From an uncultured SAR116 cluster alpha proteobacterium (GTDB taxonomy: Bacteria; Pseudomonadota; Alphaproteobacteria; Puniceispirillales; Marisalimonadaceae), in the NCBI GenBank assembly GCA_902583415.1, contig CACHVW010000011.1, positions 1 through 32,842 on the forward strand: a DNA stretch of 32,842 nucleotides. Direction: 5' to 3'. Each line of letters starts with the position of its first letter. Positions within the stretch are counted from its first letter, which is position 1. The notes beneath the pieces were generated by a model. It was not told the origin of the DNA. It saw only the letters and a list, made by a program, of their open reading frames with translations, and did not search any database. Below are positions 2,146 to 28,864 of this stretch, piece after piece. Position numbers and translations under genes: made by a program.

Positions 2146-2171
2146 TATTAATATCCCTAACTATAAATTTA

Positions 2172-2510: not shown

Positions 2511-2529
2511 AAAATTTCCTGTTTAAAAA

Positions 2530-2553: not shown

Positions 2554-2627
2554 TTTTAGCGTCTAATAATTGTAAACACTCCATGTAAATGAATGGTTAA
2601 TTTGTGCAGTTGAAGTGGTATTACAAA

Positions 2628-3357: not shown

Positions 3358-3480
3358 TTTAACTCCTCTAATACATTTTTATTGATTATCATGTCTATTA
3401 GATTAAACCTAGAAAACTCAAATTCTATTATAAAATAATCATTTATATTAAGTATTATTAAGTTAGAAGCTTATCTAAAG

Positions 3481-3510
3481 CCTCTAACTTGTTTAAAGTG
3501 TATTTAGAGG
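3481..3510 (-). terminator. Possible terminator hairpin at the end of the tandem-domain gene
   Basis: CCTCTAA at 3481-3487 is the perfect inverted complement of TTAGAGG at 3504-3510, with a 16-base loop. The distal arm includes the stop codon of the minus-strand gene ending at 3504. There is no strong T-tract, so this is only a candidate. Confidence 0.3.
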
Positions 3511-13307: not shown

Positions 13308-13610
13308 ATGGAATTACGAAAATGGCATGAGAGACCTGAGAGCTCCACAGAAAAGATTAAGGATCAAAAAGTACTTGATGGAAAAAATTTTTTAAAATTA
13401 GCAGATCATTTTATTTCTTTTGCAAACACCAAAAATAAAACTATAAAATCAACTGATCTTAACTACATAATGCTTTATGCTGCTGCTCGATATTCTGCTC
13501 ATGTTGGGAAGAACGTTTTAGAAACAGATAATCATGAAGATTATGTAAAGCACATGTCAGAACAATTTATAGATATGATACGCGAGCATTTAGCTGATCC
13601 AAACTTATAG
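13308..13610 (+). CDS. DUF5076-like small protein
   Basis: A 100-residue cytoplasmic protein, first gene of the plus-strand operon that runs to 17210. The C-terminal half, with LNYIMLYAAARYSAHVG and a closing MSEQFIDMIREHL helix, resembles DUF5076, a family I associate with alphaproteobacterial FDH loci; the match is by memory and moderate. GGGAG lies 12 bases before ATG 13308. Function unknown. Confidence 0.6.
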   Translation: MELRKWHERPESSTEKIKDQKVLDGKNFLKLADHFISFANTKNKTIKSTDLNYIMLYAAARYSAHVGKNVLETDNHEDYVKHMSEQFIDMIREHLADPNL

Positions 13611-13649
13611 GATAGTTTTGCTTTAACAAAATTTTTAAGGAGAAAGTTC

Positions 13650-13889
13650 ATGAGAGATAAAAAAGATATGTCAGATATGACTGCTTCAGAAATTAGTTAC
13701 AGGAAATTTTTAAAAAATCTAGGTGTTACAACACATAAAGAAATCGAAAAATTGATTAACAAAAAAATAGCTGATGGTGAATTGAGTCCTAACGCTAATC
13801 TTGATATTACAGCTAACATCACAATTGATGAGTTAGGTCTTAATCATTCAGTTTCTTCAACATTATCATTACCAGGAAAAAATGACTGA
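13650..13889 (+). CDS. DUF6494-family small protein
   Basis: A 79-residue protein with the family pattern of a short helix (SYRKFLKNLGVTTHKEIEKLI), a linker rich in small residues, and a closing strand pair (ITANITIDELGLNHSVSSTLSL). AAGGAG precedes ATG 13650. Its stop overlaps the start of mrp by eight bases, so it is translationally coupled to an iron-sulfur carrier. Function unknown; context suggests help in metallocluster delivery. Confidence 0.7.
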   Translation: MRDKKDMSDMTASEISYRKFLKNLGVTTHKEIEKLINKKIADGELSPNANLDITANITIDELGLNHSVSSTLSLPGKND

Positions 13890-14967
13890 ATTAAATAAAG
13901 ATTTAATATTAGATACATTAAAAAAGGTTCAAGATCCCTCACAGTCAAAGGATATTGTTACTTTAGGTTTAGTAGGTAATATTACCATTAAGGATTGTAA
14001 CGTAGCAGTTACCTTAGAGGTTCCGGTTCATAGAGGAGCGTCAATGGAACCTATCAGAAAATTAGCACAACAAAATATTTTAAAAATTGATGGTGTTACC
14101 AGTGCTACAGTTGTAGTTACTGCGCATGATAATAAACACAACAAAACCACAGATAATGTAAAAACTGATAAAACTGTTGAAAAAGTAATAGAATCGAAAG
14201 TAAGGCGATTTATCGCAGTTGGATCTGGCAAAGGCGGTGTAGGAAAATCAACTACTTCAGTAAATTTAGCTATTGCTCTAAAGCTTGAAGGATATAAGGT
14301 AGGTCTTCTAGATGCTGATGTTTACGGTCCCTCTCAGCCCAGGATGTTAGGAGTAAGTGGAAGACCTGCATCAGTTGGAGGAGATATGGTTGCCCCTCTT
14401 CAAAATTATGGAATAAGTCTAATGTCTATGGGGCTTTTAGTGCCTGATGATACTGCAATGATTTGGCGTGGTCCTATGGTACAGTCAGCATTAACGCAGA
14501 TGTTAAATTCAGTTGCGTGGGGAAATCTTGATATAATTGTAATTGATTTACCACCCGGAACAGGAGATATTCAAATTTCTCTTGCTCAGCAAGTAAATTT
14601 AGCAGGCGCTGTCATAGTATCCACTCCTCAAGATATAGCATTGCTAGATGTTGTTAAAGCTTTAACAATGTTTCAAAAAGCGAATGTTCCAGTATTAGGA
14701 ATGATTGAAAATATGTCATATTGGTCTTGTCCAGATTGTGGTAGAATAGATCATATTTTTGGTGAAGGTGGCGTAAAAGCTGAGGCAAAAAAAAGAGGGA
14801 TTGAAATGTTAGGTGAAATACCAATAAGTTCTCAGGTAAGAAAGAGTTCCGATTCAGGTATTCCTATAATAATTTCTGAGCCAAAATCAGTTCAATCTAA
14901 AAATTATAGAAATATTGCAAAGGCTATTATCAAGTCTGTTAAAATAGATGAAGAGGAGTTAGTATGA
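13882..14967 (+). CDS. mrp: Mrp/ApbC-type Fe-S cluster carrier ATPase
   Basis: A 361-residue P-loop NTPase of the Mrp/NBP35 family. Residues 1-82 form the MIP18/DUF59 domain. The deviant Walker A GSGKGGVGKSTTS is at 115-126, the DADVYGPSQP motif at 144-153, and IDLPPGTGD at 221-229. The cluster-binding CxxC is SCPDCG (Cys283, Cys286). Such proteins form dimers that bridge a [4Fe-4S] cluster and hand it to apo-enzymes. Tight coupling on both sides (8-base overlap before, ATGA overlap after) within the FDH cluster suggests it serves FdhA/FdhB or the ferredoxin-like protein, but it may also be the cell's general carrier. Confidence 0.92.
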   Translation: MTELNKDLILDTLKKVQDPSQSKDIVTLGLVGNITIKDCNVAVTLEVPVHRGASMEPIRKLAQQNILKIDGVTSATVVVTAHDNKHNKTTDNVKTDKTVEKVIESKVRRFIAVGSGKGGVGKSTTSVNLAIALKLEGYKVGLLDADVYGPSQPRMLGVSGRPASVGGDMVAPLQNYGISLMSMGLLVPDDTAMIWRGPMVQSALTQMLNSVAWGNLDIIVIDLPPGTGDIQISLAQQVNLAGAVIVSTPQDIALLDVVKALTMFQKANVPVLGMIENMSYWSCPDCGRIDHIFGEGGVKAEAKKRGIEMLGEIPISSQVRKSSDSGIPIIISEPKSVQSKNYRNIAKAIIKSVKIDEEELV

Positions 14968-15725
14968 GTTTATATTATGAACTTGATCCAGCAAACGATA
15001 ATGACCCACCGCTTTTACCACCAATTTTAACTCCGGTTGCGGTGCCAGACAAAATCGAAGTTTTTAACAAGGCTATTTCTGCAGCTGCAAATAGTGAAGC
15101 AGGAACAGTATTTTATTCTGAGAGCACAGAATTTGTAGAAATAGCTGTAGTTTTAAATCCTGAAGTGAAAAAAATTAAATGTAATCAAATGTTGTATGTA
15201 ATGATGGTTGCAGCTGGAGACTCAATTGGAGCACTTGCACCGCCTGAAGTAGTGGTTACATATTCTTATCCAGGATTAATTTACTTAAATCAAGGTGAAG
15301 CGGGTATGGTAAAAATAGAGGTTTCTTCAACTAATGAGGATACTATTCCAGATTGGATTGTAGTTGGATTAAAATTGAGGTTAAATAATCAGCTTCAAAT
15401 GGATGAAAATAATATTCAGCCAGATATAACATCTCTTGCGGATGAAGGCGCAGGTTTTGTCTCAAGAACAAGAGCTGTTGAATCTTTGTCTAGGCATTTT
15501 TTAGCTTGGATTAGTCAATGGGAAGACGAGGGCTTTAAACCTGTCGTAGATATGTGGAATTCTAGAAGAGAAAAAAATAAAGAGCTTATTTTGAAAAATC
15601 AAGAAAATGTCACGTGGGTTGGATTAGACGAAAATGGATTGGCAATTGTCAAATCTAAAAATAAAGAAATATTCTTATCGCCAATTGAAATTACAAAAGA
15701 AATTGGAGACATTAATTTAAGATGA
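14964..15725 (+). CDS. Biotin/lipoate protein ligase-like protein with DUF4444-type C terminus, catalytic motifs degenerate
   Basis: A 253-residue protein of the biotin/lipoate A/B ligase-like fold. The region EFVEIAVVLNPE corresponds to the central strand of the BPL domain. The C-terminal part with FVSRTRAVESLSRHFLAWISQW and an effector-like segment (about 215-245) matches the DUF4444-bearing branch. The ATP-binding GRGRxGR loop is absent, and where BirA has the KWPND motif this protein reads SYPGLIYLNQG, without the catalytic Lys. It is therefore probably not an active biotin ligase. Four-base overlaps with mrp and the DUF6505 gene show tight coupling. I infer a binding or chaperone role in FDH maturation. 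Confidence 0.75.
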   Translation: MSLYYELDPANDNDPPLLPPILTPVAVPDKIEVFNKAISAAANSEAGTVFYSESTEFVEIAVVLNPEVKKIKCNQMLYVMMVAAGDSIGALAPPEVVVTYSYPGLIYLNQGEAGMVKIEVSSTNEDTIPDWIVVGLKLRLNNQLQMDENNIQPDITSLADEGAGFVSRTRAVESLSRHFLAWISQWEDEGFKPVVDMWNSRREKNKELILKNQENVTWVGLDENGLAIVKSKNKEIFLSPIEITKEIGDINLR

Positions 15726-16201
15726 AGTTTGCAAAAACAATTCGTTTCGACAAATCGGATTTAAATATTTTCCCATTGGCTTCAGAAGAAGGTGAGTTAG
15801 CTGTGGTTGGCACTTTTAACTTTTATAATTTAAAGCAGCAAGATTTAAATGGTAAAATAAAGCAGGCATTCTCTAATGGTTTCATGGGCTGTAATACATT
15901 TGGTTATAGTACGTTTGTTAGTTTAGTGAATATTAGTAAAAAAGAATTACAACAACTAAAAATAGACTTAGGAAAGTATTTGGTTGATAATTTTGGTGCT
16001 CCAACAAAAGAGATGGCTGAAAAGGCGGCAACAGAAGAAATAAATTTTATGCTTGATTTGTGCAAAAATCATGAAATTGGAAGTCTTTTAAGTTTGACAA
16101 GAACTTGGGAAGATGAAGGAATTAAGGAAAAATTTAGAAATCTCCCTAAAGCTGACTCATGTGCAGAACAAAAAATATGGACTTTTGTTGATGAGAGTTA
16201 A
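15722..16201 (+). CDS. DUF6505-family protein
   Basis: A 159-residue cytoplasmic protein. MKFAKTIRFDKSD near the start, GFMGCNTFGYSTFV (about 52-65) and LTRTWEDEGI near residue 137 match my memory of DUF6505, a family of unknown function seen beside DUF6352 in alphaproteobacterial FDH gene clusters. The start codon overlaps the stop of the ligase-like gene (ATGA). It contains three Cys (about 56, 115 and 149) but no clear metal motif. Function unknown. Confidence 0.75.
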   Translation: MKFAKTIRFDKSDLNIFPLASEEGELAVVGTFNFYNLKQQDLNGKIKQAFSNGFMGCNTFGYSTFVSLVNISKKELQQLKIDLGKYLVDNFGAPTKEMAEKAATEEINFMLDLCKNHEIGSLLSLTRTWEDEGIKEKFRNLPKADSCAEQKIWTFVDES

Positions 16202-16217
16202 TTCGGGGAATTAATTA

Positions 16218-17210
16218 ATGGTTAAAAACGATTTTTGGTTAACTTCTGGCTGGCATTTGTTAGATCAAAATGATGAGGGTCATTTAGTTCCTACTGAAGA
16301 CTTTATGCGAGCATATTTCTATAGACCTGAGGTTGTACCAATTGAAGAATCATGTGAAGCTGAAACTAAGCTGCATAAAAAATTGGTTGATAAACCTTTT
16401 GCTCTAGTTGAAAAAAAAGAACTTAACTCAATTAGAGATAAAGACGTAATTTTCAACTATGAAGTTATATTAAAGTTTAGAGATTTTTTATCAAAGTATC
16501 CAACATTAGATAGTGCTTATCTTTCAATAGCAAGAGGACAAGCTATAGACTTTCCTCCTCTTTTTGTAGATCAAATGGTTCAAATTATTTTAAGGAACAT
16601 TCTCAATCAATCACCCTATGCTCTTCAAGTGAGGGCGTCAGAAATATTCTTTAGGACACAGGTTGTTACTATAGCAGAAGATGAAATAATGGTCGCAGAT
16701 GAAGCTACAGTTCAACTTCAAGCTGAGAAAAAAATCACTAAAGCAAATGATCCAAAACAATTTGAGGTTGACATAGATATTTTAAGAGAAAGCTCTGCTG
16801 ACAATTATTGGAGTAGATCAGATAAATTCGACACCTCCATTGATCTTGCTTACACTAAACCAGGCTTAGATGCACTGGCACGAGTGATTGAAAAATGGGT
16901 TTATCATTTTCTTTCTATAGAAGTTTCAATAAAACCCATGCAAAAAATTGAGGATGCAAAATGGTCATGGCACTTTGGTTTAGACAGTGATTCTAACAAT
17001 ATTTTAAACGATCTTTATAATGGAATTGACGTTGCTGACGAAAGACTTAAACAGATACTATGTTTATTTCAACTTGATGCTGAAGACGGATTTGTTCAAG
17101 AAATGAATGGTAAGCCAGTATATGTTGGATTAGCAATGAATGATAGTTCTAAGATAAAATTTAAACCTCAAAATATATTAACTAATTTACCTTTATTAAA
17201 TACTTCTTAA
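16218..17210 (+). CDS. DUF6352-family protein
   Basis: A 330-residue cytoplasmic protein beginning FWLTSGWHLLDQNDEGHL, continuing FMRAYFYRPEVVPIEESCEAE and FPPLFVDQMVQIILRNIL, all characteristic of DUF6352. The family is of unknown function and travels with FDH genes. No catalytic motif is apparent; the many helices suggest a binding or scaffold protein. It is the last gene of the operon, 16 bases after DUF6505, and its stop overlaps that of the convergent ferredoxin-like gene by the four bases TTAA. Confidence 0.8.
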   Translation: MVKNDFWLTSGWHLLDQNDEGHLVPTEDFMRAYFYRPEVVPIEESCEAETKLHKKLVDKPFALVEKKELNSIRDKDVIFNYEVILKFRDFLSKYPTLDSAYLSIARGQAIDFPPLFVDQMVQIILRNILNQSPYALQVRASEIFFRTQVVTIAEDEIMVADEATVQLQAEKKITKANDPKQFEVDIDILRESSADNYWSRSDKFDTSIDLAYTKPGLDALARVIEKWVYHFLSIEVSIKPMQKIEDAKWSWHFGLDSDSNNILNDLYNGIDVADERLKQILCLFQLDAEDGFVQEMNGKPVYVGLAMNDSSKIKFKPQNILTNLPLLNTS

Positions 17211-19237
17211 TTCAAGTAATCATCAGTTGTTCTTGGTTTAGGTCGGTCTTGAGCATCAAGCATTTTATCATTTTCCTTAAACATTTCTCCAACACGGCAG
17301 TCTTCACACATTTTAAGCATTTCAGTCCTACCATCTTTTTCAAACATCGTATGAGTAGAGAGTTTTTCAATTATTCTTTCTATAGATTTAGTAGATCCAA
17401 AAGTTTTACCACAAACAATACAATCAAAAGGTTGATCCTCAATAATAACTTTTGCTGACATTGCGTTATCGTTTAAGTTGAATTGAGAGTTAAGAGATAT
17501 TGCTTTTTCGGGACATGTTGCTACACATATACCACATTGTAAGCAAGCATCTTCTCTGAATAAAAGTTGAGGAGAGTCTGGATTGTCCTGCAATGCGCCA
17601 GCAGGGCACGCACTTACGCATGATAAACAAATAGTACAACTATCAATATTAACATCAACTGTCCCATAAGGTGAATTATTAGGTAATGGTATAATGTCTT
17701 TTTTATTGTTATTACTTTTTGATAAACCTTGTATTCCGGCTCTCAATATTCCTCTAGGTGCTCCAACTGCAACAAAAGAAGATGGTTTGATTTTGGTGTA
17801 ACCATCTTTTTCATAAAATTTATCCCCAATTTTTTCAGGATCACTCTCTTCAATAAATGTAATTGATTTATTATCATTTTTTGCAACGCCAGAAAGTAAG
17901 GCATTGGCCAATTCAATTTCTTTTGGTAAGAAATCAAATTCTTCAATTTTTTTTGGGTTTAGGAGTATAAAAATTTTTTTATATCCAATAGCTATCGAAG
18001 ACACTAGAATATCATGACCAACTCTACCAACAGAATGCATTGAATAGGGTATCAAGTTAGCCGGCAAACCACTGCCATGTCTTGAAAGAATATTTATAAC
18101 TTCATTTCCATAATCATTATCAAACAAAACTAAAGCAGGGTTTTTACCACCAGCTTTGATATAATTATCATGCAGGGTTGATAAATCACCTAATATAACT
18201 TCAAGGCTTGGATAATCAGTTTGAATAGCGCCAGATGGACAGACGGATCCGCAAAAACTACAACCACCGCATATACCTGGATCTACAGAAATAACGTCAC
18301 CAGATGTTTGAATAGCACCTGCAGGGCAAACATCCAGACATTTTGAACATCCAGTTTTTTCATTACGTGAATGTGCGCATAAACTCTCATTATAGTTTAC
18401 ATAAATTGGTTTTTCAAACTCCCCAATCATATCAATTGCTTTTGAAAAAATCTCTAGTAAGTCATTTGGACTATTTGTGCTTGCTCTAAAATAACCATCA
18501 CGTTTGTGATCACCTGTAAACATAGGTGTGTTTTCACTTAGATCTATTATTATGTCGCATTCACTATCTACTGATTCAAAAAAATCTCCAAACATCATAT
18601 TTGATTTACTACTTGGAAGTGCTTCGGAAAAATTATTTATCTCAAGTTGGAATTGAGAAAAGTAACCTTGAGCTCTGTTTATATTTCCTTTTGTTATTTT
18701 GAAATTTTGAGGCTCTAAAACTATTTCGTCCTCACAATTAGAAATCATTAGTGTTACACCAAGGTGTTTATTTAATTTTTTACAGAAATCAAAAGCAATA
18801 CCAAGGGAGTCGTCACCATTTTTATAATTAGTGTAAACAAAGCATCTTCCTAAAGAATTTAAAGTTAAACTTGGTGTTTTTTTTGTTTCATTGACAGATG
18901 AATTTATCAAAGCGCTTATTTTAGGAACGGATTTTTTACCCTCTTTAGACCATCCTGCATATTCTCTTATATTAAAAGTTCCAGGTGGCTGAAAATTATT
19001 TTCTTCAGCTAAATTTTCAAAAATATCTTCTTGCTGAGTGCACGCAATTAGCAATTTTTTATTTTCTTTATTTCCTACTTTTAGTTCATCCAAAACAACA
19101 TCTAATTCTGAACCGCATAAGTTGTTATGTATTTTACATTTACTATCTAATTGGCAAGCTTTTGATAATGCTTCATCATCAATATCCATTGTTGCTTCGC
19201 AATTGCAAATAAGTATTTTTTTATTATCAATTTCCAA
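17207..19237 (-). CDS. Multi-cluster ferredoxin-like 4Fe-4S protein of FDH loci
   Basis: A 676-residue soluble iron-sulfur protein. An N-terminal region opens with ICNCEATM (Cys11, Cys13). A first dicluster ferredoxin module has Cys287, 297, 300, 304 and Cys323, 326, 329, 333. A middle domain (about 365-430), with GLPANLIPYSMHSVGRVGHD in it, resembles the MvhD/FlpD hydrogenase-delta fold but lacks its cysteines. A second dicluster module has Cys534, 537, 540, 544 and Cys565, 568, 571, 575. A C-terminal zinc-ribbon-like pair of CxxC motifs (606/609 and 644/647) closes the protein. The TTG at 19237 is chosen because GGGAG lies seven bases upstream; another TTG two codons earlier is too close. 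Similar long proteins recur beside DUF3305/DUF3306 in alphaproteobacterial FDH clusters. Role (electron transfer or cluster assembly) is inferred. Confidence 0.8.
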   Translation of the reverse strand: MEIDNKKILICNCEATMDIDDEALSKACQLDSKCKIHNNLCGSELDVVLDELKVGNKENKKLLIACTQQEDIFENLAEENNFQPPGTFNIREYAGWSKEGKKSVPKISALINSSVNETKKTPSLTLNSLGRCFVYTNYKNGDDSLGIAFDFCKKLNKHLGVTLMISNCEDEIVLEPQNFKITKGNINRAQGYFSQFQLEINNFSEALPSSKSNMMFGDFFESVDSECDIIIDLSENTPMFTGDHKRDGYFRASTNSPNDLLEIFSKAIDMIGEFEKPIYVNYNESLCAHSRNEKTGCSKCLDVCPAGAIQTSGDVISVDPGICGGCSFCGSVCPSGAIQTDYPSLEVILGDLSTLHDNYIKAGGKNPALVLFDNDYGNEVINILSRHGSGLPANLIPYSMHSVGRVGHDILVSSIAIGYKKIFILLNPKKIEEFDFLPKEIELANALLSGVAKNDNKSITFIEESDPEKIGDKFYEKDGYTKIKPSSFVAVGAPRGILRAGIQGLSKSNNNKKDIIPLPNNSPYGTVDVNIDSCTICLSCVSACPAGALQDNPDSPQLLFREDACLQCGICVATCPEKAISLNSQFNLNDNAMSAKVIIEDQPFDCIVCGKTFGSTKSIERIIEKLSTHTMFEKDGRTEMLKMCEDCRVGEMFKENDKMLDAQDRPKPRTTDDYLN

Positions 19238-19240
19238 AAA

Positions 19241-19256
19241 CAATCTCCCAAGATTG
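19241..19256 (-). promoter_or_regulatory. Small hairpin holding the ribosome binding site of the ferredoxin-like gene
   Basis: CAATCT at 19241-19246 and AGATTG at 19251-19256 are perfect inverted complements with a four-base loop. On the minus strand the GGGAG ribosome binding site is split between loop and stem, four bases before the TTG start, so the structure could lower translation. Only six base pairs, so modest. Confidence 0.3.
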
Positions 19257-19263
19257 AGACAAG

Positions 19264-19291
19264 AACTTATTTAATTGTGGTATAATGTCAA
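19264..19291 (-). promoter_or_regulatory. Candidate promoter for the ferredoxin-like gene
   Basis: On the minus strand a perfect TTGACA (19291-19286) is followed after 16 bases by TAAGTT (19269-19264), which keeps the key first, second and last bases of a -10 box. It lies about 30 bases before the TTG start. It overlaps a plus-strand candidate promoter. Confidence 0.4.
19278..19286 (+). promoter_or_regulatory. Candidate extended -10 promoter for the DUF3305 operon
   Basis: TGGTATAAT, a perfect TATAAT preceded by the extended TGn element, lies about 97 bases before the DUF3305 start. No good -35 is present at standard spacing (TTGAGA at 19254 is 21 bases away). It overlaps the minus-strand candidate, so the two directions may compete for polymerase. 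Confidence 0.4.
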
Positions 19292-19382
19292 TTAATTTCT
19301 CATTACAAAAAAAATTTAGTTTGTTTTTTATTCTTAATGTTGTTATTTAGCTCTCCTATCTAAGGTTAATAAATGAGGCATT

Positions 19383-19994
19383 ATGATAAGCTTAGAAAAT
19401 AATAAGCATCTTTTATATGGTGTAAGAATCATTTTTGAAAAAAAAGAAATTGATAATCAATGGGAAAGTCATAAATGGATAGTTAATGATTTGATACCTC
19501 TTGATGTGACAAGTGGAGGAGGATATCCTCCAATTAATGACGTTAAAATTCGTCCACTTTTAAATGATGTTTCTCCACAAAATAGTGATAATAAAAATTT
19601 ATTTGTTGCAGATGCCTCAATTGACTTGCATCGCGCAGAGGCTGAAGGTTATGCTGAAAATCTTCAATCTTCAGACCCTTCAATATATATAGTTCTGAGA
19701 GATGGAGATTTAATTGAAGAAAATGAAAAAAAAAGTGATGAGAAAAGAAATATTGACGTTCATTTAGCAGAAGTCTCACTATCTCCCTATCATATTCAAG
19801 ATTATGAAGATTGTGGAGAAGATAAGGTTGAAAAAGTTCCATTATATGGTCCCATTTTAGAGCTCTTAAATAAGTTTGTTAGTATTCACTTTCATCCTGA
19901 GGAGTTTAAAAAAAGAAAAAGAGATAAAAAAAATATTGATGAAAATATTCATCGAGGTGGGGATCAAAGACTAAAGAAAAATTATTATAACTAA
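19383..19994 (+). CDS. DUF3305-family protein
   Basis: A 203-residue cytoplasmic protein. The N-terminal GVRIIFEKKEIDNQWESHKW (in part), the middle DLHRAEAEGYAENLQ and DPSIYIVLRDGD match DUF3305, found almost only next to DUF3306 and FDH genes. The C-terminal 40 residues are rich in Lys/Arg/Glu and probably disordered. It is followed 26 bases later by DUF3306. Function unknown; a maturation or assembly role for FDH is inferred from linkage. Confidence 0.8.
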   Translation: MISLENNKHLLYGVRIIFEKKEIDNQWESHKWIVNDLIPLDVTSGGGYPPINDVKIRPLLNDVSPQNSDNKNLFVADASIDLHRAEAEGYAENLQSSDPSIYIVLRDGDLIEENEKKSDEKRNIDVHLAEVSLSPYHIQDYEDCGEDKVEKVPLYGPILELLNKFVSIHFHPEEFKKRKRDKKNIDENIHRGGDQRLKKNYYN

Positions 19995-20020
19995 TAATAG
20001 ATTTTAAAGGTTAATTTATA

Positions 20021-20785
20021 ATGGAAGAAGATAAAAAAGATTTAAATGAGAACTTTCTTTCTAGATGGTCTAAAAAAAAATCTAAACAAAAGTCTGAACA
20101 AGAAATTTCTAAAATAGAATCGCCTGATTTTAATAGTTCCCAAGGTGATGAAGTTTCAAAATCTTCAACATCAGAAGCGAGTGAAAACGATAAACTTAAT
20201 GATGATGAATTGTTAAAGAAATATAATTTACCAAATCCTGAGAAAATTAAAAAAGAAAAATCTTTAGATGTGTTTTTTAGAGATGGAGTTCCTGACAGAT
20301 TGCGTCAAATAGCATTGCGAAGAGTATGGAGATTAAATCCAATAATAAGATTCGCTGATGCAGAAATTAACGATTATCATGAAGATTTTACTGATGCTGC
20401 AACAGTTATTGAAGGGATGGAAACAGCTTATAAAGTTGGAAAAGGTTATCTGTCAGATTTAATTGATGATAAAGATGAAAATAATGACGTCGAATCGATA
20501 ACTCCTATTCAACTATCAACAGATAAAAGTAATAAAAAGAAAATTAAAAAAATTTCTAAAGGAAAAAATCAAGATAAAATAAAAAATAAGAAACAAAATT
20601 ATGAAACGAAACTTATTTCTGAAAAAGACAATAAGAAAAATATCAGTAAGATTGGCGAAATAAAAAAAGATAAGACTACAATAGAACAAACATCAACAAA
20701 CACAGATGAAATTCAAATTTCCTTGCAAGATATTAATCATAAAATAAAGCCAGAAACAATGGTTTTTAAACCAAAAAATCAGTGA
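20021..20785 (+). CDS. DUF3306-family protein with long basic tail
   Basis: A 254-residue cytoplasmic protein. It has the family start NFLSRWSKKK (about 9-18), a Ser/Glu-rich linker, and a conserved core RDGVPDRLRQIALRRVWRLNP with NDYHEDF (about 87-126). The last 90 or so residues are Lys-rich low-complexity sequence and likely disordered. DUF3306 accompanies DUF3305 in FDH loci; function unknown. AAAGG lies upstream of the ATG. Confidence 0.8.
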   Translation: MEEDKKDLNENFLSRWSKKKSKQKSEQEISKIESPDFNSSQGDEVSKSSTSEASENDKLNDDELLKKYNLPNPEKIKKEKSLDVFFRDGVPDRLRQIALRRVWRLNPIIRFADAEINDYHEDFTDAATVIEGMETAYKVGKGYLSDLIDDKDENNDVESITPIQLSTDKSNKKKIKKISKGKNQDKIKNKKQNYETKLISEKDNKKNISKIGEIKKDKTTIEQTSTNTDEIQISLQDINHKIKPETMVFKPKNQ

Positions 20786-20863
20786 TAATAATTTTTAACT
20801 AACAGATCTAAATTTTATTTTGATTTTTTACTTAACACATTAATAAAAAAAAGCTTTTCTTTT

Positions 20864-20891
20864 CCAAAATAATAGTAAATAGTTATTTTGG
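20864..20891 (+). promoter_or_regulatory. Perfect 9-bp inverted repeat over the torD ribosome binding site
   Basis: CCAAAATAA at 20864-20872 and TTATTTTGG at 20883-20891 are exact inverted complements around a 10-base spacer, extendable by two G-U pairs. The distal arm runs into the GGGGG ribosome binding site (20890-20894) of the TTG start at 20902. As RNA it could hide that site; as DNA it could be an operator. A weak promoter candidate (TTGATT at 20820, TAAAAA at 20844, 18-base spacing) lies just upstream, which would put the hairpin at the 5' end of an fdh transcript. Confidence 0.5.
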
Positions 20892-20901
20892 GGGATATAA
20901 C

Positions 20902-21519
20902 TTGAGTTCTAATAACGCCAAAATTCTAGATAATGTAAATGAAGAAGATCAGTTGCGTGCTGATATGTATTCATTTTTAGCCAATCTTCTAAGATCAGAG
21001 CCTGACGAAAAATTAGTAAAACAATTAACAACGCTTGAATCTGATGATTCTCCCATTGGAAAATCAATTAAGACACTCTCAAAATTAGCTACTTCTCTTG
21101 ATCTCCCAACTATTAGAGATGAGTATGTAAGAATATTTGTAGGGGTCGGTAGAGGTGAAATACTCCCCTTTGCTTCTTATTATTTGACTGGATTTTTAAA
21201 AGACAAGCCTTTAGCCAAGTTAAGACAGGATATGCAAAAAATTGGCATCAAGCTAGAGGAAAATGTAAAAGAGCCAGAGGATCACATCGCAAGCATATTT
21301 GATATGATGTCTGGCTTGATACTTGGAAAGTTTGAAAAAAAATATTCTATTACAGAGCAAAAAGATTTCTTTAATAAGCATTTAGCTCCATGGGTTGACT
21401 TGCTTATGAGAGATATTGAAAGTTCCAAAATTGCAGTGTTTTATTCGCCAATTGGAACTATTGGAAAAGAATTTATGGAAATTGAACGTGCGTCGTTCTC
21501 AATGAATGTCTCGGGGTAG
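20902..21519 (+). CDS. TorD/DmsD-family molybdoenzyme chaperone
   Basis: A 205-residue helical cytoplasmic chaperone. DMYSFLANLLRSEPDEKLV near the N terminus, then RDEYVRIFVGVGRGEILPFASYYLTG (in part, about 72-98), then EPEDHIASIFDMMSGLI with the PxDH-type motif (about 134-150), are the TorD family layout. Such proteins bind the Tat signal of a molybdoenzyme precursor until cofactor is inserted. It lies directly upstream of the Tat-signal genes, so FdhA is the expected client. Start is TTG 20902, set by GGGGG seven bases upstream. Its stop codon lies inside the first copy of an 18-base GC-rich motif. Confidence 0.85.
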   Translation: MSSNNAKILDNVNEEDQLRADMYSFLANLLRSEPDEKLVKQLTTLESDDSPIGKSIKTLSKLATSLDLPTIRDEYVRIFVGVGRGEILPFASYYLTGFLKDKPLAKLRQDMQKIGIKLEENVKEPEDHIASIFDMMSGLILGKFEKKYSITEQKDFFNKHLAPWVDLLMRDIESSKIAVFYSPIGTIGKEFMEIERASFSMNVSG

Positions 21520-21577: not shown

Positions 21578-21766
21578 ATGAAGATTGATAAATCTAAGAA
21601 TGGTAGGAGAGACTTTTTAAAAGGTGCCGCTGTAACAGCCGCCGCCGCTACAGTGGCTGCAACTGTTACCAAAACAGCATCTGCTAACGAGACTATGAAT
21701 ACTACTGGTTCAGGCTACCAGAAAACAAAGCATGTAAAAACTTATTATGAAACCGCTAGGTTCTAA
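21578..21766 (+). CDS. Small formate dehydrogenase region Tat-target protein
   Basis: A 62-residue protein made mostly of a twin-arginine signal: GRRDFLKGAA with Arg10-Arg11, an Ala-rich hydrophobic stretch, and a probable cleavage after ASA at about residue 36. The mature part is only some 26 residues and ends in YYETARF. It fits the 'formate dehydrogenase region TAT target' family that sits between TorD and FdhA. AAGGAG before ATG 21578 sets the start. Role unknown; it may be a small subunit or export escort of FDH. Confidence 0.85.
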   Translation: MKIDKSKNGRRDFLKGAAVTAAAATVAATVTKTASANETMNTTGSGYQKTKHVKTYYETARF

Positions 21767-21796
21767 TATTAATTAATCAATTTAAGGAGGAAAAAT

Positions 21797-24688
21797 ATGC
21801 TTAGAAAGAAGACGAAAGGGGTGGCGATAGGCTCCCAAACTTCATCTTTCAATGGTAAAACCTCAGAAAAAGTCGTTGATAGGCGTACTTTTTTGAAAGG
21901 TTCAGGGTTAGCTGTAGGGGGATTAGCTACAGCTGCAGCACTCGCAGGTTCAAATGTTAAGCCAGCACAGGCTTCATTTTCAACCTCTGCAGTATCCATG
22001 AAGAAAACAGTTTGTACGCACTGTTCAGTTGGTTGTACGATTATGGCTGAAGTTCAAAATGGTGTATGGACAGGCCAAGAGCCAGGTTGGGATAGCCCAA
22101 TTAATTTAGGTGCTCATTGTTCTAAAGGTGCATCCGTAAGAGAAACTGCAAGTGGAGAAAGAAGATTAAAATATCCTATGAAGCTTGTTAGTGGCAAATG
22201 GACAAGAATGTCATGGGATGATGCCATAAATGAAATTGGCGACAAGATGGAAGCCATCAGAACTTCATCAGGTCCTGATTCTGTTTATTGGTTAGGTTCT
22301 GCTAAATTTAATAATGAGCAGTCATATTTATTTAGAAAATTTTATGCATATTGGGGATCTAATAATGGTGACCACCAAGCAAGAATATGTCATTCAACTA
22401 CAGTTGCAGGTGTTGCTAACACCTGGGGTTACGGCGCAATGACAAATTCTTACAATGACATTCACAATTCTAAGGCAATGTTTGTCATTGGTGGAAATCC
22501 AGCAGAAGCTCACCCAGTGTCATTAATGCACTTAATGAAAGCAAAAGAGCAAAATAATGCTCCATTAATTGTGTGTGACCCACGTTTTACTAGAACAGCA
22601 GCACATGCTGACGAATATGTAAGATTTCGTCCAGGTTCAGATGTGGCCTTAATCTGGGGTATTATGTGGCATATCTTCGAAAATAAATGGGAAGATAAAC
22701 AATTTATTAGGCAACGTGTCTATGGTATGGATGATGTTAGAGCTGAAGTAAAAAAGTGGAATCCTGAGGAAACAGAAAGAGTTACTGGAGTTCCTGGATC
22801 TCAGTTAAAAAGAGTAGCTAAAATAATGGCTAATAACAGACCTGGTACATTTATCTGGTGTATGGGTGGAACTCAGCATACTAACGGAAACAATAACACA
22901 AGAGCATATTGTGCATTTCAATTAGCCCTAGGAAACATGGGAACCGCAGGTGGTGGTGCTAACATATTCCGAGGCCACGATAATGTTCAGGGTGCTACCG
23001 ACTTTTGTATTTTATCCCATTCTTTACCAGGTTATTACGGTTTATCCGCTGGTGCTTGGAAGCATTGGTCAAGAGTATGGGGAGAAGATTACAATTGGAT
23101 TAAAGCAAGATTTTCTTCAATGAAAGGAAAAGACGGTAAAACCAAGAGTATGATGAACCAGAAGGGTATACCTGTATCAAGATGGATTGATGGTGTTCTT
23201 GAAAAGAGAGAAAATATAGAACAGCCAGATAATTTAAAAGCAATGGTATTCTGGGGACATGCTCCTAACTCTCAAACTAGAATGAAGGAAATGAAAGTAG
23301 CAATGGAGAAGTTAGACCTTATGGTTGTGATTGATCCTTACCCAACAGTTTCTGCAGTTTTATCTGATAGAACAGATGGCGTTTACCTACTTCCATCTAC
23401 TACTCAGTTTGAGACATATGGATCACTTACTTCATCCAATAGATCACTTCAATGGAGAGAGAAGGTAATCGAGCCATCTTTTGACTCACTTCCTGATCAT
23501 ACTATTATATATAAGTTTGCAAAAAAGTTTGGGTTTGCAGACCGTATGTTCAGAAATATTAAAGTAACTAATGATGAGCCTTACATTGAAGACGTAACTA
23601 AAGAGTTCAATAGTGGTATGTGGACAATAGGTTATACTGGTCAGTCACCAGAGAGACTTAAAGCTCACATGAAGAATCAACACGTTTTTGATAAAACAAC
23701 TTTAAGAGCTGTTGGTGGAGAACTTGATGGTGATTATTATGGTTTACCTTGGCCTTGTTGGGGTAACCCAGAAATGAAACACCCTGGTACACCATTGTTA
23801 TATGACACATCAAAGCCAGTGGCAGAAGGTGGATTATGTTTTAGAGCAAGATTTGGTGTTGAGCACGAAGGTAATAACCTATTAGCTGAAGGTTCATATC
23901 CGGTTGGTTCTGAGATTAAAGACGGTTATCCACAATTTACAATGGCAATGCTGAAAAAACTTGGCTGGGATAAAGATTTAACAGCTGAGGAAAAAGCTGC
24001 AATTGATAAAGTTGCGGGTGATAAAACTAACTGGAAAGTTGACTTATCTGGTGGTATCCAAAGAGTTGCTATCAAGCATGGTTGTGCTCCTTTTGGAAAC
24101 GCTAAGGCAAGAGTTAAAGTTTGGACATTTCCAGATCCAATTCCATTACACAGAGAACCACTATACACTTCTAGAAGAGACCTTGTAGCTGATTATCCTA
24201 CATACTCTGATAGAATGGCATATAGACTTCCAACATTGTATAAGTCTATTCAGGATGTGGATCACTCTGTTAAATATCCGATCATTCTAACTTCAGGAAG
24301 ACTGGTTGAATATGAAGGTGGTGGAGATGAGACAAGATCAAATCCATGGCTAGCTGAATTGCAACAAGACATGTTTGTTGAAATCAATCCATTTGACGCC
24401 AACTCTAAAGGAATTAGAAATGGTGCAATGGTTTGGGTTGCAACCCCAGAAGGAGCTAGGATTAAAGTTATGGCAATGGTAACGGAGCGTGTTGCCAAAG
24501 GTGTAGCTTTCTTACCATTCCACTTCGGTGGTCATATGGAAGGTGAAGATCTTAGATCTAAGTACCCAGAAGGTTCAGATCCGTATGTACTAGGTGAAGC
24601 AGCAAACACTGCATTTACTTATGGATATGACTCAGTAACACAGATGCAAGAGACTAAGTGCTCATTGTGTCAAATTGAACTAGCTTAA
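21797..24688 (+). CDS. fdhA: Formate dehydrogenase alpha subunit (Mo/W-bis-MGD, Cys type), Tat-exported
   Basis: The 963-residue catalytic subunit oxidising formate to CO2. A Tat signal is present with DRRTFLKGSG (Arg29-Arg30) and likely cleavage after AQA at residue 59. The [4Fe-4S] cluster ligands are Cys73, Cys76, Cys80 and Cys108. The active-site pair is ARICHSTTVAG, with Cys198 in the place of selenocysteine and His199 next to it; no in-frame TGA is needed. The rest is a full-length molybdopterin oxidoreductase with the C-terminal MGD-binding domain (FLPFHFGGHMEGED and following). AAGGAGG precedes ATG 21797. The signal-coding region contains copy 2 of the GC-rich hairpin motif. It is a periplasm-facing respiratory FDH, related to FdnG/FdoG. 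Mo versus W cannot be read from sequence. Confidence 0.96.
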   Translation: MLRKKTKGVAIGSQTSSFNGKTSEKVVDRRTFLKGSGLAVGGLATAAALAGSNVKPAQASFSTSAVSMKKTVCTHCSVGCTIMAEVQNGVWTGQEPGWDSPINLGAHCSKGASVRETASGERRLKYPMKLVSGKWTRMSWDDAINEIGDKMEAIRTSSGPDSVYWLGSAKFNNEQSYLFRKFYAYWGSNNGDHQARICHSTTVAGVANTWGYGAMTNSYNDIHNSKAMFVIGGNPAEAHPVSLMHLMKAKEQNNAPLIVCDPRFTRTAAHADEYVRFRPGSDVALIWGIMWHIFENKWEDKQFIRQRVYGMDDVRAEVKKWNPEETERVTGVPGSQLKRVAKIMANNRPGTFIWCMGGTQHTNGNNNTRAYCAFQLALGNMGTAGGGANIFRGHDNVQGATDFCILSHSLPGYYGLSAGAWKHWSRVWGEDYNWIKARFSSMKGKDGKTKSMMNQKGIPVSRWIDGVLEKRENIEQPDNLKAMVFWGHAPNSQTRMKEMKVAMEKLDLMVVIDPYPTVSAVLSDRTDGVYLLPSTTQFETYGSLTSSNRSLQWREKVIEPSFDSLPDHTIIYKFAKKFGFADRMFRNIKVTNDEPYIEDVTKEFNSGMWTIGYTGQSPERLKAHMKNQHVFDKTTLRAVGGELDGDYYGLPWPCWGNPEMKHPGTPLLYDTSKPVAEGGLCFRARFGVEHEGNNLLAEGSYPVGSEIKDGYPQFTMAMLKKLGWDKDLTAEEKAAIDKVAGDKTNWKVDLSGGIQRVAIKHGCAPFGNAKARVKVWTFPDPIPLHREPLYTSRRDLVADYPTYSDRMAYRLPTLYKSIQDVDHSVKYPIILTSGRLVEYEGGGDETRSNPWLAELQQDMFVEINPFDANSKGIRNGAMVWVATPEGARIKVMAMVTERVAKGVAFLPFHFGGHMEGEDLRSKYPEGSDPYVLGEAANTAFTYGYDSVTQMQETKCSLCQIELA
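21818..21835 (+). repeat. GC-rich hairpin motif, copy 2
   Basis: GGGGTGGCGATAGGCTCC, differing from copy 1 (21513-21530) at two positions. It can fold as GGG pairing with CCC at 21834-21836 around the same TRGCGATAGG core. It lies 21 bases inside fdhA, in the codons before the twin-arginine motif. Confidence 0.5.
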
Positions 24689-24703
24689 AGGAGGGCTTAA
24701 AAA

Positions 24704-25294
24704 ATGGCACGAATGAAATTCTTATGCGATGCAGAAAGATGTATTGAGTGTAACGCCTGTGTGACAGCATGTAAGAATGAGCATGAGGTACCATGGGGAA
24801 TTAACAGAAGAAGAGTTGTAACAATACAAGATGGAAAGCCAGGAGAAAGATCAATATCTGTAGCCTGTATGCACTGTTCTGATGCTCCTTGCATGGCGGT
24901 GTGCCCAGTTGACTGTTTTTATCAAACAGATCAGGGTGTAGTGTTACATTCTAAAGATCTATGTATCGGCTGTGGTTACTGTTTCTATGCTTGTCCTTTT
25001 GGAGCTCCTCAATTTCCACAAGCTGGGAATTATGGATCAAGAGGAAAAATGGATAAATGTACTTTTTGTGCAGGTGGGCCTGAAGCGGATATGGGTGAGT
25101 TAGAGTTCCAAAAGTATGGACGTAATAGACTTGCTGAAGGTAAACTACCATCATGTGCAGAAATGTGTGCAACAAAAGCATTGCTTGCTGGTGATGGAGA
25201 CGAAGTAGCTGATATCTTTAGAGAAAGAGTGGTTGCTCGTGGTTTCGGATCCGGTGCTTGGGGATGGGGAACTGCATACCAATTAAAAGGTTAA
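24704..25294 (+). CDS. fdhB: Formate dehydrogenase beta (iron-sulfur) subunit
   Basis: A 196-residue electron-transfer subunit with sixteen ligand cysteines for four [4Fe-4S] clusters: Cys13/16/19/23, Cys55/58/63/67, Cys87/90/93/97 and Cys119/122/151/155. It passes electrons from FdhA to the membrane cytochrome b. It is about 100 residues shorter than E. coli FdnH and has no C-terminal membrane anchor, as is common in alphaproteobacteria. It has no signal and should be exported with FdhA by piggy-back. AAGGAGG precedes the ATG, 15 bases after the fdhA stop. Confidence 0.95.
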   Translation: MARMKFLCDAERCIECNACVTACKNEHEVPWGINRRRVVTIQDGKPGERSISVACMHCSDAPCMAVCPVDCFYQTDQGVVLHSKDLCIGCGYCFYACPFGAPQFPQAGNYGSRGKMDKCTFCAGGPEADMGELEFQKYGRNRLAEGKLPSCAEMCATKALLAGDGDEVADIFRERVVARGFGSGAWGWGTAYQLKG

Positions 25295-25304
25295 AAAAAT
25301 AAAA

Positions 25305-25332
25305 AAAAAAGGCGGTTTTAGCCGCCTTTTTT
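25305..25332 (+). terminator. Strong intrinsic terminator between fdhB and the lipoprotein gene
   Basis: AAAAAAGGCGG pairs with CCGCCTTTTTT around the loop TTTTAG: an 11-bp perfect stem with GC core and T-tract, ten bases after the fdhB stop. It is the clearest terminator in the window and lies inside the FDH gene run, so fdhC and later genes depend on read-through or a new promoter. It is symmetrical enough to work in both directions. Confidence 0.85.
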
Positions 25333-25365
25333 GATTCTAAATATCTTACAATTTTGGGGTATATA

Positions 25366-25560
25366 ATGATAAAAATTAATAAAGTAATTATAATTATCTC
25401 AATCTTTCTTACATCTTTGGTATTAAGTTCATGCCAAGAAGAACAAGGAAGAATATTAAATTATAAAAAAGGTGTGTATTTAGGTAAAAAAGACGATAAT
25501 CTAACTAAAGAACAAGTAAATAAACTCAAGTTGCATACTTCAAGACAAAGAAGTAATTAA
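25366..25560 (+). CDS. Small lipoprotein of the FDH cluster
   Basis: A 64-residue precursor with a hydrophobic signal and lipobox LSSC (Cys23), followed by QEEQGRILNYKKGVYLGK. The mature lipoprotein is about 42 residues and would be tethered to a membrane on the periplasmic side. Similar short lipoproteins with a GVYLGK segment occur beside fdhC in other alphaproteobacteria, from memory. ATG 25366 is preferred to an upstream TTG. It lies between the terminator and fdhC, 13 bases before fdhC. Function unknown; it could help FDH assembly. Confidence 0.75.
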   Translation: MIKINKVIIIISIFLTSLVLSSCQEEQGRILNYKKGVYLGKKDDNLTKEQVNKLKLHTSRQRSN

Positions 25561-25573
25561 GAGGAGAAAATTA

Positions 25574-26635
25574 ATGGTTAGGAAACTGGTTATTGCATTT
25601 ACTATGGTATTTGTCATTAGTCTTACATTTGTAACAAATCCAAACTCATCAATAGCTCAAGTTAAGGGCGAGGTTCCAGGCAACACATTAGGATTAAAAT
25701 CTGATGCTGATTTGTGGCGCTATATAAGAACTGGTAATGCTGGATCAACTCAAATGAAAGATCAATTATCAGCTGTGATGATCCAATCAGAAGGTGATAA
25801 TTGGAGAGCAATAAGAAATGGTCCGGTTACGTTGTATGGTGGATTAGGCTTGCTAGCAATTATAGGTGTTCTTTTTGCTTTTTATATGTATAGAGGTAAA
25901 ATAAAAGTGGATGCAGGTCTCTCTGGAGATACAATTTTAAGATTTGCTGCAATCGACAGATTTGCCCATTGGCTGATGGCTGGTTCATTTGTTTTGTTGG
26001 CATTAACGGGCTTAAATTTGCTTTACGGAAAATATGTATTATTACCTATTTTTGGGCCTGAAATTTTTACTGCTATTACTATTGGTGGCAAATATATTCA
26101 TAATTACCTAGCCTTTGCTTTCATGTTAGGTCTAGTACTAGCATTTGTATTGTGGGTAAGACATAATATACCAAATAAAGTTGATTGGGAATGGTTGAAG
26201 ATGGGTGGCGGCATATTTAAAGCAGGTGTGCATCCACCAGCAAAAAAATTTAATGCAGGGCAAAAAATGATTTTTTGGATAACCATGATTGGTGGACTTT
26301 CTGTAAGTATGTCAGGAATTGCATTGATGTTCCCATTTCAAACTACAATGTTTGCTGACACATTTGCCATACTTAATGTTCTTGGATTAGGTTTACCAAC
26401 TGATTTAACGCTGTTACAAGAACAGCAATATAATCAGGTTTGGCATGGAATTGTATCCTTGGGTCTAATGATTATGATTATTGCACATATATACATAGGT
26501 TCAGTAGGAATGGAAGGCGCACTTGACGCCATGAACAGCGGTGAAGTTGACAAAAATTGGGCAAAAGAACACCATGGTTTATGGGCTAAGGAAGTGGAAG
26601 AAGAATCAAAATCAAAGCCTGAACCCGCAGAGTAA
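25574..26635 (+). CDS. fdhC: Formate dehydrogenase gamma subunit, cytochrome b556
   Basis: A 353-residue membrane subunit that takes electrons from FdhB and reduces quinone. It has a cleavable signal (to about residue 28, SSIA), a periplasmic N-terminal extension of about 60 residues containing QSEGDNWRAIRNGP, then about five hydrophobic segments (87-106, 132-151, 174-195, 232-253, 290-308). Heme-ligand candidates are His132, His176, His291 and His305. The N-terminal extension is typical of alphaproteobacterial FdhC and absent from E. coli FdnI. GAGGAG precedes ATG 25574. Confidence 0.93.
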   Translation: MVRKLVIAFTMVFVISLTFVTNPNSSIAQVKGEVPGNTLGLKSDADLWRYIRTGNAGSTQMKDQLSAVMIQSEGDNWRAIRNGPVTLYGGLGLLAIIGVLFAFYMYRGKIKVDAGLSGDTILRFAAIDRFAHWLMAGSFVLLALTGLNLLYGKYVLLPIFGPEIFTAITIGGKYIHNYLAFAFMLGLVLAFVLWVRHNIPNKVDWEWLKMGGGIFKAGVHPPAKKFNAGQKMIFWITMIGGLSVSMSGIALMFPFQTTMFADTFAILNVLGLGLPTDLTLLQEQQYNQVWHGIVSLGLMIMIIAHIYIGSVGMEGALDAMNSGEVDKNWAKEHHGLWAKEVEEESKSKPEPAE

Positions 26636-28153: not shown

Positions 28154-28864
28154 ATGGTTAATAAAACTATTAAATCAGTTTTATATTTAACTATATTCTT
28201 ATTAAATTTTAGTACCCTTGCTCATGATTATTCTGAAGTATGGGAAAAAGCTCACAAATCAACTGTAGTTGTTTTGCCAACTTGGCCAGGATACAATAAA
28301 CCCGGTTTTGGAGCCCCAGCTGGTACTGCACCAGCTGGTACAGGTTTTTACTTGTCATTGAACAAAAAAGAAAAAATGACAAACTATATACTTACAGCTG
28401 CGCATGTAATTAAAAATGCAAAGATAGTAGAAATTAAAAATTATAATAATAAATCAGAGAAAGTTGATGTAATTTTGACTGACTTTAAAACTGATATAGC
28501 TATTTTAAAATCAACAAAAAAAGGCCAAAGTGTCCTAGTTACAAATAAAAAAATAAAATATGGTAATGAAGTTTGTCTAATAGGTAATAGTTTTGGATTA
28601 GGTCAAAGCTTATCATGTGGAATAGTATCTGGACTTAATAGAACAAGATTGGGGTTCAACCCAATTGAGGATTTTATTCAAACAGATGCAGCTGTAAATC
28701 CTGGTGCTTCAGGGGCACCTTTATTAAATAAAGAGGGTCAACTGATAGGTATGGTAGATGCAATATACACCAAGGAAGCAGACATTGATGCTGGAGTTAA
28801 TTTTGCAATTGACATTAAATTAATAGAAAAGTTTTTGAATAAATATGCCAGTCAGATAAAATAG
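28154..28864 (+). CDS. Periplasmic trypsin-like serine protease (S1C/HtrA-like, no PDZ)
   Basis: A 236-residue exported protease with signal peptide (cleavage after TLA, residue 23). The catalytic triad is visible: His84 in LTAAHVI, Asp114 in KTDIAIL, Ser186 in NPGASGAPLLN. The active-site motif is GASGAPL rather than the usual GNSGGPL. There is no PDZ domain, unlike DegP/DegS, so it is a stand-alone protease domain. It lies between the small membrane protein and moeA in the FDH gene run, which suggests a quality-control or processing role for exported FDH parts; this is inference. Confidence 0.85.
   Translation: MVNKTIKSVLYLTIFLLNFSTLAHDYSEVWEKAHKSTVVVLPTWPGYNKPGFGAPAGTAPAGTGFYLSLNKKEKMTNYILTAAHVIKNAKIVEIKNYNNKSEKVDVILTDFKTDIAILKSTKKGQSVLVTNKKIKYGNEVCLIGNSFGLGQSLSCGIVSGLNRTRLGFNPIEDFIQTDAAVNPGASGAPLLNKEGQLIGMVDAIYTKEADIDAGVNFAIDIKLIEKFLNKYASQIK

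Follow-up and report, generated by a model that had tools for sequence, protein, structure and literature searches.

A candidate maturation gene set accompanying Cys-type FDH3 formate dehydrogenases, viewed from a SAR116-cluster alphaproteobacterium

A stretch of 32,842 nucleotides from an uncultured SAR116-cluster alphaproteobacterium (contig CACHVW010000011.1; this whole stretch is referred to as the window) carries a run of genes, at positions 13308-21519, that adjoins the genes for one formate dehydrogenase (FDH) and encodes several proteins of the DUF families. Judged from gene linkage and co-occurrence, this run is likely to be a maturation set dedicated to FDHs of the 'FDH3' class, in which FdhE would not be involved; the roles of its members we infer, and confidence in each single mechanistic step is lower. 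The set splits into a core of a TorD-type chaperone, DUF3305, DUF3306 and a polyferredoxin, which reaches beyond the class Alphaproteobacteria, and an optional add-on comprising a PF16917 pseudo-ligase, DUF6505 and DUF6352, often with DUF6494 and Mrp. This reading is carried by the distribution of DUF3305, which follows FDH3 from genome to genome, and by the core genes staying together inside and outside the class, even where they lie apart from FDH3.

Co-occurrence of DUF3305 and DUF6352 with FDH3

Two genome samples, class and phylum, taken as Alphaproteobacteria and Pseudomonadota, were examined: a fixed set of 172 genomes, which included the window's own and was searched with seven families, and a set of 194 genomes. 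The window's genome comprises 1.50 Mb in 117 contigs and is 68% complete, with the window on contig C11; all other genomes were drawn at a completeness of at least 90%. FDH3 was scored as present when its beta subunit exceeded the cut-off of model NF038355 (240 bits), whereby 28/172 class genomes, spread over 25 families and in one case with FDH3 split across two contigs, and 28/194 phylum genomes, 13 of them outside the class, were positive. Five positive genomes are shared between the samples, leaving 51 distinct FDH3 genomes.

In the class sample, DUF3305 was found in 29 genomes, namely all 28 with FDH3 and one (G107) of the 144 without. In the phylum sample DUF3305 and the FDH3 beta subunit occurred in identical genomes (0/166 without FDH3), with two of each in G329. 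Seven class families (f15, f30, f43, f58, f60, f62 and f80) contributed one genome with FDH3 and one without, and DUF3305 tracked FDH3 in 14/14 of these. DUF6352 was found in 24 class genomes, 23 of the 28 with FDH3 plus one (G006) of the 144 without, and in 12 phylum genomes, all FDH3-positive (12/28; 0/166 without), including 2 of the 13 outside the class. In several genomes DUF6352 lies far from FDH3 or on another contig, and still only one DUF6352 genome lacks FDH3. The positive association of both families with FDH3 is strong: Fisher p values, uncorrected for shared ancestry, are 2e-31 (class) and 2e-34 (phylum) for DUF3305, and 1e-22 and 7e-12 for DUF6352. An earlier note made from the window's sequence had proposed that these genes would accompany FDH in the absence of FdhE and be uncommon elsewhere; for DUF3305 and DUF6352, set against the FDH3 beta subunit, both expectations held.

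The remaining families were less faithful companions. DUF6505, which the same note had listed alongside the others, exceeded its cut-off in 18 class genomes, 17/28 with FDH3 and 1/144 without (G101, where the frame has an internal stop), and so tracks FDH3 more weakly than DUF3305 or DUF6352. DUF6494 occurred in 28 class genomes (19/28 with FDH3 and 9/144 without) and PF16917 in 120/172, with the 19 top PF16917 matches (>120 bits) all in FDH3-positive genomes; neither DUF6494 nor the PF16917 family is FDH-specific. Among the 28 FDH3-positive class genomes, 14 have both DUF6352 and DUF6505, 9 have DUF6352 alone, 3 have DUF6505 alone and 2 have neither, so that DUF6505 is missing from 11/28 and DUF6352 from 5/28. 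The genes therefore do not form the one single set that had been supposed.

Core and add-on genes around FDH3

Gene neighbourhoods were compared in 51 FDH3 loci, taken from plasmids, genomes and the window, and in a further 47 named loci that were found through the polyferredoxin, whose count there is by construction. Within the fetched stretches of the 51 loci, DUF3305 and DUF3306 were each found in 48, TorD in 49 and the polyferredoxin in 42; in the named loci, DUF3305 and DUF3306 were each found in 47 and TorD in 42. DUF3306 was surveyed by neighbourhood only. The three loci that miss DUF3305 comprise one at a contig end (L034, whose other half, L033, has DUF3305), one with the gene on another contig (G020, L031), and one (G060) in which a polyferredoxin-DUF3305-DUF3306-TorD block lies ~40 kb from FDH3 (L148). 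Outside the class (e.g. G245, G213, G338 and G256) the order is DUF3305-DUF3306-polyferredoxin-TorD-Tat peptide-FdhABC.

Of the add-on genes, Mrp was linked in only 11/51 and 15/47 loci and is therefore not the key cluster factor; the earlier suggestion that Mrp and the ferredoxin-like protein handle iron-sulfur clusters is not supported in that form. A DUF3144 homologue was present in 11/47 named loci and 2/51 others, the window included. The DUF6494-Mrp-ligase-DUF6505 block recurs, in divergent orientation, in genomes of f20 and f83 and in the named loci L105, L114, L132 and L137; in the recurring block of G273, DUF6494 was not detected. The arrangement is more than chance, since these blocks turn up again in many different families, some of them not members of the class.

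The FDH3 enzyme and its neighbours in the window

The FDH of the window is, by its sequence features, assigned to the Cys-type molybdenum 'FDH3' class that bears a twin-arginine translocation (Tat) signal. FdhA (21797-24688, plus strand) is an uninterrupted frame of 963 residues with RRTFLKG, a Tat motif, near the N-terminus and an active-site codon for Cys (Cys198, within RICHST) rather than TGA. In the alignment of FDH3 FdhA sequences, Cys occupies the active site in 95/96 (with one gap) and the twin-arginine motif is present in 89/96; both traits are drawn from this aligned set, not from a curated model. On the same strand, FdhB (24704-25294) passes the FDH3 beta equivalog NF038355 with 338 bits against the cut-off of 240, and FdhC (25574-26635), the cytochrome b561 gamma subunit, matches TIGR01583 with 142 bits (cut-off 115.85).

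Three further plus-strand genes accompany the enzyme. A small Tat-signal protein, 'formate dehydrogenase region TAT target' (21578-21766; TIGR02811, 57.6 bits, cut-off 48.45), precedes FdhA, as it does in 50/51 FDH3 loci, and is possibly an extra subunit. Following FdhC is a WD40 beta-propeller protein (26651-28000) with an N-terminal hydrophobic segment, fused at its C-terminus to a cytochrome c domain (CxxCH, residue 359); similar proteins lie by 32/51 and 36/47 (named) FDH3 loci, and this one may be a partner of FDH3 in the periplasm, for redox or for assembly. A trypsin/DegP-like protease (28154-28864) adjoins the FDH3 operon, with homologues in 8/47 named loci. MoeA (28871-30100, plus strand), for the molybdenum cofactor, comes next and is followed on the minus strand by a 2-oxoglutarate-oxygenase-like gene, a MobA-MobB fusion (30779-31912), also for the cofactor, and the sulfurtransferase FdhD (31925-32809).

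Upstream of the enzyme, the helper genes begin on the plus strand with a DUF3144 protein (13308-13610), which is loosely associated, followed by the DUF6494 small protein (13650-13889, E 9.4e-18), the Mrp/ApbC iron-sulfur carrier NTPase (13882-14967; PF10609, E 5.2e-99), the PF16917 biotin/lipoate-ligase-like protein (14964-15725, E 4.9e-59), DUF6505 (15722-16201, E 5.6e-50) and DUF6352 (16218-17210, E 1.4e-107). The polyferredoxin (17207-19243) is on the minus strand, where its gene runs tail to tail into DUF6352 and has its start 139 bases away from DUF3305. DUF3305 (19383-19994, E 5.1e-24), DUF3306 (20021-20785, E 3.4e-16), a charged protein without a membrane segment, and the TorD/NarJ-family chaperone (20902-21519; PF02613, 108 bits, cut-off 22.2, E 4.5e-31) follow on the plus strand. 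Nine of the ten proteins named in the earlier note were as it had read them; the first, which it had called DUF5076, gave no match to that family and has PF11342, i.e. DUF3144, as its sole Pfam match at E <= 0.01 (42.8 bits). The overlaps reported at 13882/13889, 14964/14967 and 15722/15725 are exact, and they join DUF6494, Mrp, the ligase-like gene and DUF6505 only, because the polyferredoxin gene is on the minus strand. The run had also been described as surrounding one FDH; the FDH genes do adjoin it, but they (21578-26635), MoeA, MobA-MobB and FdhD all lie beyond 13308-21519.

A simple hydropathy scan gave no membrane segments for the helpers from DUF3144 to TorD, which are therefore taken as cytoplasmic. 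The G+C content of the window is 32.1%. The window's polyferredoxin shares 96% identity with its counterpart in one SAR116-cluster metagenome-assembled genome and 81-82% with those in two more, and up to their contig ends all three relatives keep the gene order of the window.

Features of the helper proteins

The polyferredoxin of the window has 678 residues and 30 Cys, in an HdrA/NapF-like, multi-[4Fe-4S] arrangement. Across 23 aligned polyferredoxins, sets of invariant Cys lie at residues ~289-335 and ~536-577, both of them ferredoxin-type stretches, and 23/23 have the C-terminal site C608/C611-C646/C649. Among the polyferredoxin genes of the compared loci, reading-frame sizes range from 553 to 835 residues. 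Outside the class, L051, L056 and L058 are without the first ~110 residues, and L046, L048 and L061 keep them. The C-terminal half matches the NapF model TIGR00402 over residues 497-616 (50.5 bits, E 2e-13), below its cut-off of 102.2, in keeping with a protein predicted to work like NapF and not to be a member of that family. The N-terminal half gave a weak HdrA profile match (3e-4) that includes an NIRE..W stretch. HdrA has an FAD-binding Rossmann motif between its N-terminal and ferredoxin domains; a flavin-type GxGxx[G/A] motif was absent from 19/23 aligned polyferredoxins, the window's included.

The ligase-like protein is close to the solved structure 3bfm over its whole length (E 1e-72). 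The catalytic lysine of biotin/lipoate ligases belongs to the KWPND motif; at this position, placed by alignment to a solved BirA, none of 27 aligned ligase-like sequences has Lys, and 5 have Arg. A WEDEG stretch is shared in the window with DUF6505, and a relationship between the two was rejected at an hhalign probability of just 0.5%; comparison of DUF6352 with DUF6505 likewise gave nothing.

Structure models were obtained for DUF6352, with a predicted local distance difference test score (pLDDT) of 93.0 and a predicted template-modelling score of 0.91, and for DUF3305 (pLDDT 82.3). In Foldseek searches neither model had a PDB match at E <= 0.001, and the top VIA Z values were 3.1 and 2.3, respectively; such a lack of matches is no proof of a new fold. 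The top VIA match for DUF3305 was 3on5, titled xanthine dehydrogenase, and was discarded as not significant (Z 2.3, root-mean-square deviation 5.8 over 119). Sequence profiles of DUF6352, DUF3305 and DUF6505 gave nothing significant against the PDB. The window's DUF3305 and MobA align to different portions of a single NCBIfam MobA-DUF3305 model, both with scores far short of its cut-off; fused proteins, MobA-DUF3305 included, were not found in 145 loci plus the window with our own models, and the fusion rests on the NCBIfam title only. For TorD, the equivalog cut-off was not reached (69 versus 132).

FdhE and the two types of FDH locus

FdhE was searched for with the FdhE_N Pfam model only, which picks up matches down to 69 bits and the E. 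coli control. As had been noted before, none was seen among the scanned window proteins, nor was any found in the window's genome at its 68% completeness. Above cut-off, FdhE was absent from all 28 FDH3-positive genomes of the class and all 28 of the phylum, i.e. from 0/51 distinct genomes, own included, was it recovered; among genomes without FDH3 it was present in 6/144 and 25/166, respectively. Five phylum families (f20, f60, f131, f144 and f152) contain both FdhE-positive and FDH3-positive genomes.

Among the 31 genomes with FdhE, one FdhE locus was inspected in each of 17, some of the stretches stopping at contig ends. Alpha, beta and gamma subunits were recognisable in 12/17, and at least beta or gamma in 15/17; TGA in an R[VI]-U-HGP context was found in 11/17. 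The polyferredoxin, TorD, DUF3305 and DUF3306 were in none of the 17 fetched stretches. These features suggest that FdhE accompanies mostly selenocysteine (Sec)-type FDH-N operons, with the DUF set accompanying Cys-type FDH3. Because the inspected FdhE genes sit mostly in FDH-N-type operons, the two helper sets appear to be parallel companions of two enzyme classes. The earlier claim that the set replaces FdhE-type maturation accordingly keeps its factual half, FdhE not having been found in FDH3 genomes, and is better worded as FDH3 having its own helper set and FDH-N having FdhE; functional replacement is something we infer. A review links fdhE to FDHs of the periplasm (PMC10609526); the split seen here fits that statement only partly, because FDH3 looks exported too.

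Proposed mechanism and alternatives

The helper set probably builds FDH3 before export. In the proposed scheme, the TorD-like chaperone would hold FdhA via its Tat signal and core prior to export, and the polyferredoxin would assist in assembling the [4Fe-4S] clusters of FdhA and FdhB or in keeping them reduced. DUF3305 and DUF3306 would be soluble assembly factors that bring FdhA together with the polyferredoxin and the molybdenum cofactor enzymes, possibly touching MobA. FdhD would sulfurate the cofactor, after which FdhA-FdhB would exit through Tat. The add-on proteins would aid this pre-export step as well, and the ligase fold among them would bind, not ligate.

A competing account, which we regard as unlikely, would have TorD alone assume the role of FdhE, taken as Tat proofreading, leaving DUF3305, DUF3306 and the polyferredoxin as, for example, alternative redox partners or regulators. 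FdhM of Campylobacter jejuni (PMC10609526) is an earlier case of an FDH with a TorD-type chaperone, and the E. coli proteins HydN and YsaA bind FDH-H and raise its dye-linked activity while being dispensable for H2 production (PMC6004506). The HdrA-like N-terminal half of the polyferredoxin, resembling an electron-transfer protein, would also suit a redox role. However, with a Tat motif in 89/96 FdhA sequences, mature FDH3 should be beyond the reach of cytoplasmic partners, and the GxGxx[G/A] motif is absent from most of the aligned polyferredoxins, which also speaks against this account. The strict co-occurrence of DUF3305 suggests an obligatory role for it, which speaks against TorD acting alone.

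That the DUF genes merely hitch-hike, being inherited with a mobile FDH3 cluster without a needed function, is very improbable: FDH3 clusters do occur on plasmids of Sinorhizobium, Bradyrhizobium and Microvirga and the add-on genes are patchy, but the core genes persist despite changed order, strand and linkage (L148 included), and DUF6352, though on another contig or far away in several genomes, comes with FDH3 in every DUF6352 genome of both samples except one. There is an even slighter chance that a divergent FdhE, or one lost from incomplete assemblies, was missed by the single model in the incomplete window genome and elsewhere, given the completeness of the other genomes, the sensitivity of the search and the count of 0/51.

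Several observations weigh against a dedicated FDH3 maturation set without FdhE. The exclusion of FdhE from FDH3 genomes is consistent but weak, as Fisher p is 0.59 in the class and 0.029 in the phylum, uncorrected for shared ancestry. FDH types can coexist in one genome, since Shewanella oneidensis is annotated with both an fdn locus containing fdhE and a second FDH locus (PMC2535785). The likenesses to NapF and HdrA could partly reflect generic ferredoxin patterns. G107 has the polyferredoxin, FdhD, MobA, DUF3305 and DUF3306 yet no FDH3 beta above cut-off; its locus (L044, C3:99500-119400) is a candidate remnant, or the FDH may be on an unassembled piece. G006 has DUF6352 without FDH3 beta, in an assembly of 810 contigs with 7% contamination. 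Second FDH3 copies also occur without adjoining helpers (L146, G133:C27) or beside the Tat peptide, MobA and FdhD only, with no active-site motif found (L147, G053:C2), so that the numbers of FDH3 beta and DUF3305 copies do not match in G053 and G133; such copies may share helpers with the main copy. Finally, no FDH subunit was seen in the DNA fetched for 26 of the 80 named polyferredoxin loci, and 14 of the 26 were also without DUF3305, DUF3306, TorD, the Tat peptide and any add-on gene, 5 of the 14 showing FdhD and MobA. Many of the 26 are short or cut, yet 9 extend over at least 20 kb, and linkage of the polyferredoxin to FDH3 is therefore not universal.

Two side observations concern these loci. 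ImuA-like and error-prone polymerase genes adjoin L044. In L080, L081, L083, L089 and L101, where the fetched DNA is without an FDH subunit or DUF3305, the polyferredoxin adjoins FdhD and MobA.

Relation to known systems

A close parallel is the NapF/NapD system of periplasmic nitrate reductase. That enzyme, too, contains molybdenum and is exported through Tat; a ferredoxin-type protein with several [4Fe-4S] clusters assists it in the cytoplasm, and its signal peptide has a chaperone of its own. For Rhodobacter sphaeroides NapA, iron-sulfur reconstitution in vitro was reported to require NapF, which is cytosolic and carries four clusters, ahead of export through Tat (PMC10609526). Unlike NapF, the polyferredoxin has an HdrA-like front and the C-terminal four-Cys site; the chaperone here is TorD-type, DUF3305 and DUF3306 are added, and the target is an FDH. 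Maturation of E. coli FDH-N and FDH-O shares with the window an exported molybdenum FDH and FdhD, the FdhD and cofactor genes being in the window, and differs in that here FdhE was not found, the active site has Cys instead of Sec, and TorD and the DUF set are present instead. C. jejuni FdhM, a TorD homologue for FdhABC, is similarly a chaperone encoded with a periplasmic FDH, and DUF3305, DUF3306 and polyferredoxin partners are not mentioned in the relevant section of PMC10609526.

The linkage of DUF3305 and DUF3306 to fdh genes is already known since 2015, when a survey linked them to torD/dmsD-fdhGHI operons (PMC4464133). Those operons resemble the window in having genes for a chaperone, an fdh TAT peptide, DUF3305, DUF3306 and a ferredoxin. 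The survey describes DUF3305/3306 as putative membrane proteins, counts them in 60% of dmsD-fdhGHI operons and states that all TorDfdh species carry fdhD/fdhE in trans; in contrast, the window's DUF3305 and DUF3306 have no membrane segment and FdhE was not found in 51 FDH3 genomes. The structure 3bfm, a biotin protein ligase-like entry titled 'unknown function', is the whole-length relative of the ligase-like protein. Fitness data for Cupriavidus necator (PMC11540253) report no effect for its membrane FDHs, which may not be FDH3. In titles and abstract openings, with few subscription papers among them, the set was not described as an FdhE substitute.

Taken further, and only tentatively, Cys-type exported FDHs may use a separate machine in which a DUF3305-DUF3306 assembly platform works with a polyferredoxin of HdrA origin, most versions of which would have lost the flavin motif as an electron-transfer protein became an iron-sulfur maturase, the machine being extendable by a dead biotin-ligase fold and DUF6352. 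Two pairings would then be contrasted, Sec with FdhE, and Cys with TorD, DUF3305, DUF3306 and the polyferredoxin. FDHs are sought for CO2 reduction, and how well such an enzyme can be made in a foreign host is limited by its helper proteins; should FDH3 depend on this set rather than on FdhE, attempts to express it with the set left out would be expected to fail. A dedicated set would also provide a function for at least four families (DUF3305, DUF3306, DUF6352 and DUF6505) and for the solved structure 3bfm, and the published view of fdhE as a companion of periplasmic FDHs would need qualifying.

Elsewhere in the window, a cluster of small proteins on the minus strand (1840-4124) comprises ydhR-like, DUF6974, NTF2-like (below cut-off), tautomerase and DUF6854 members.

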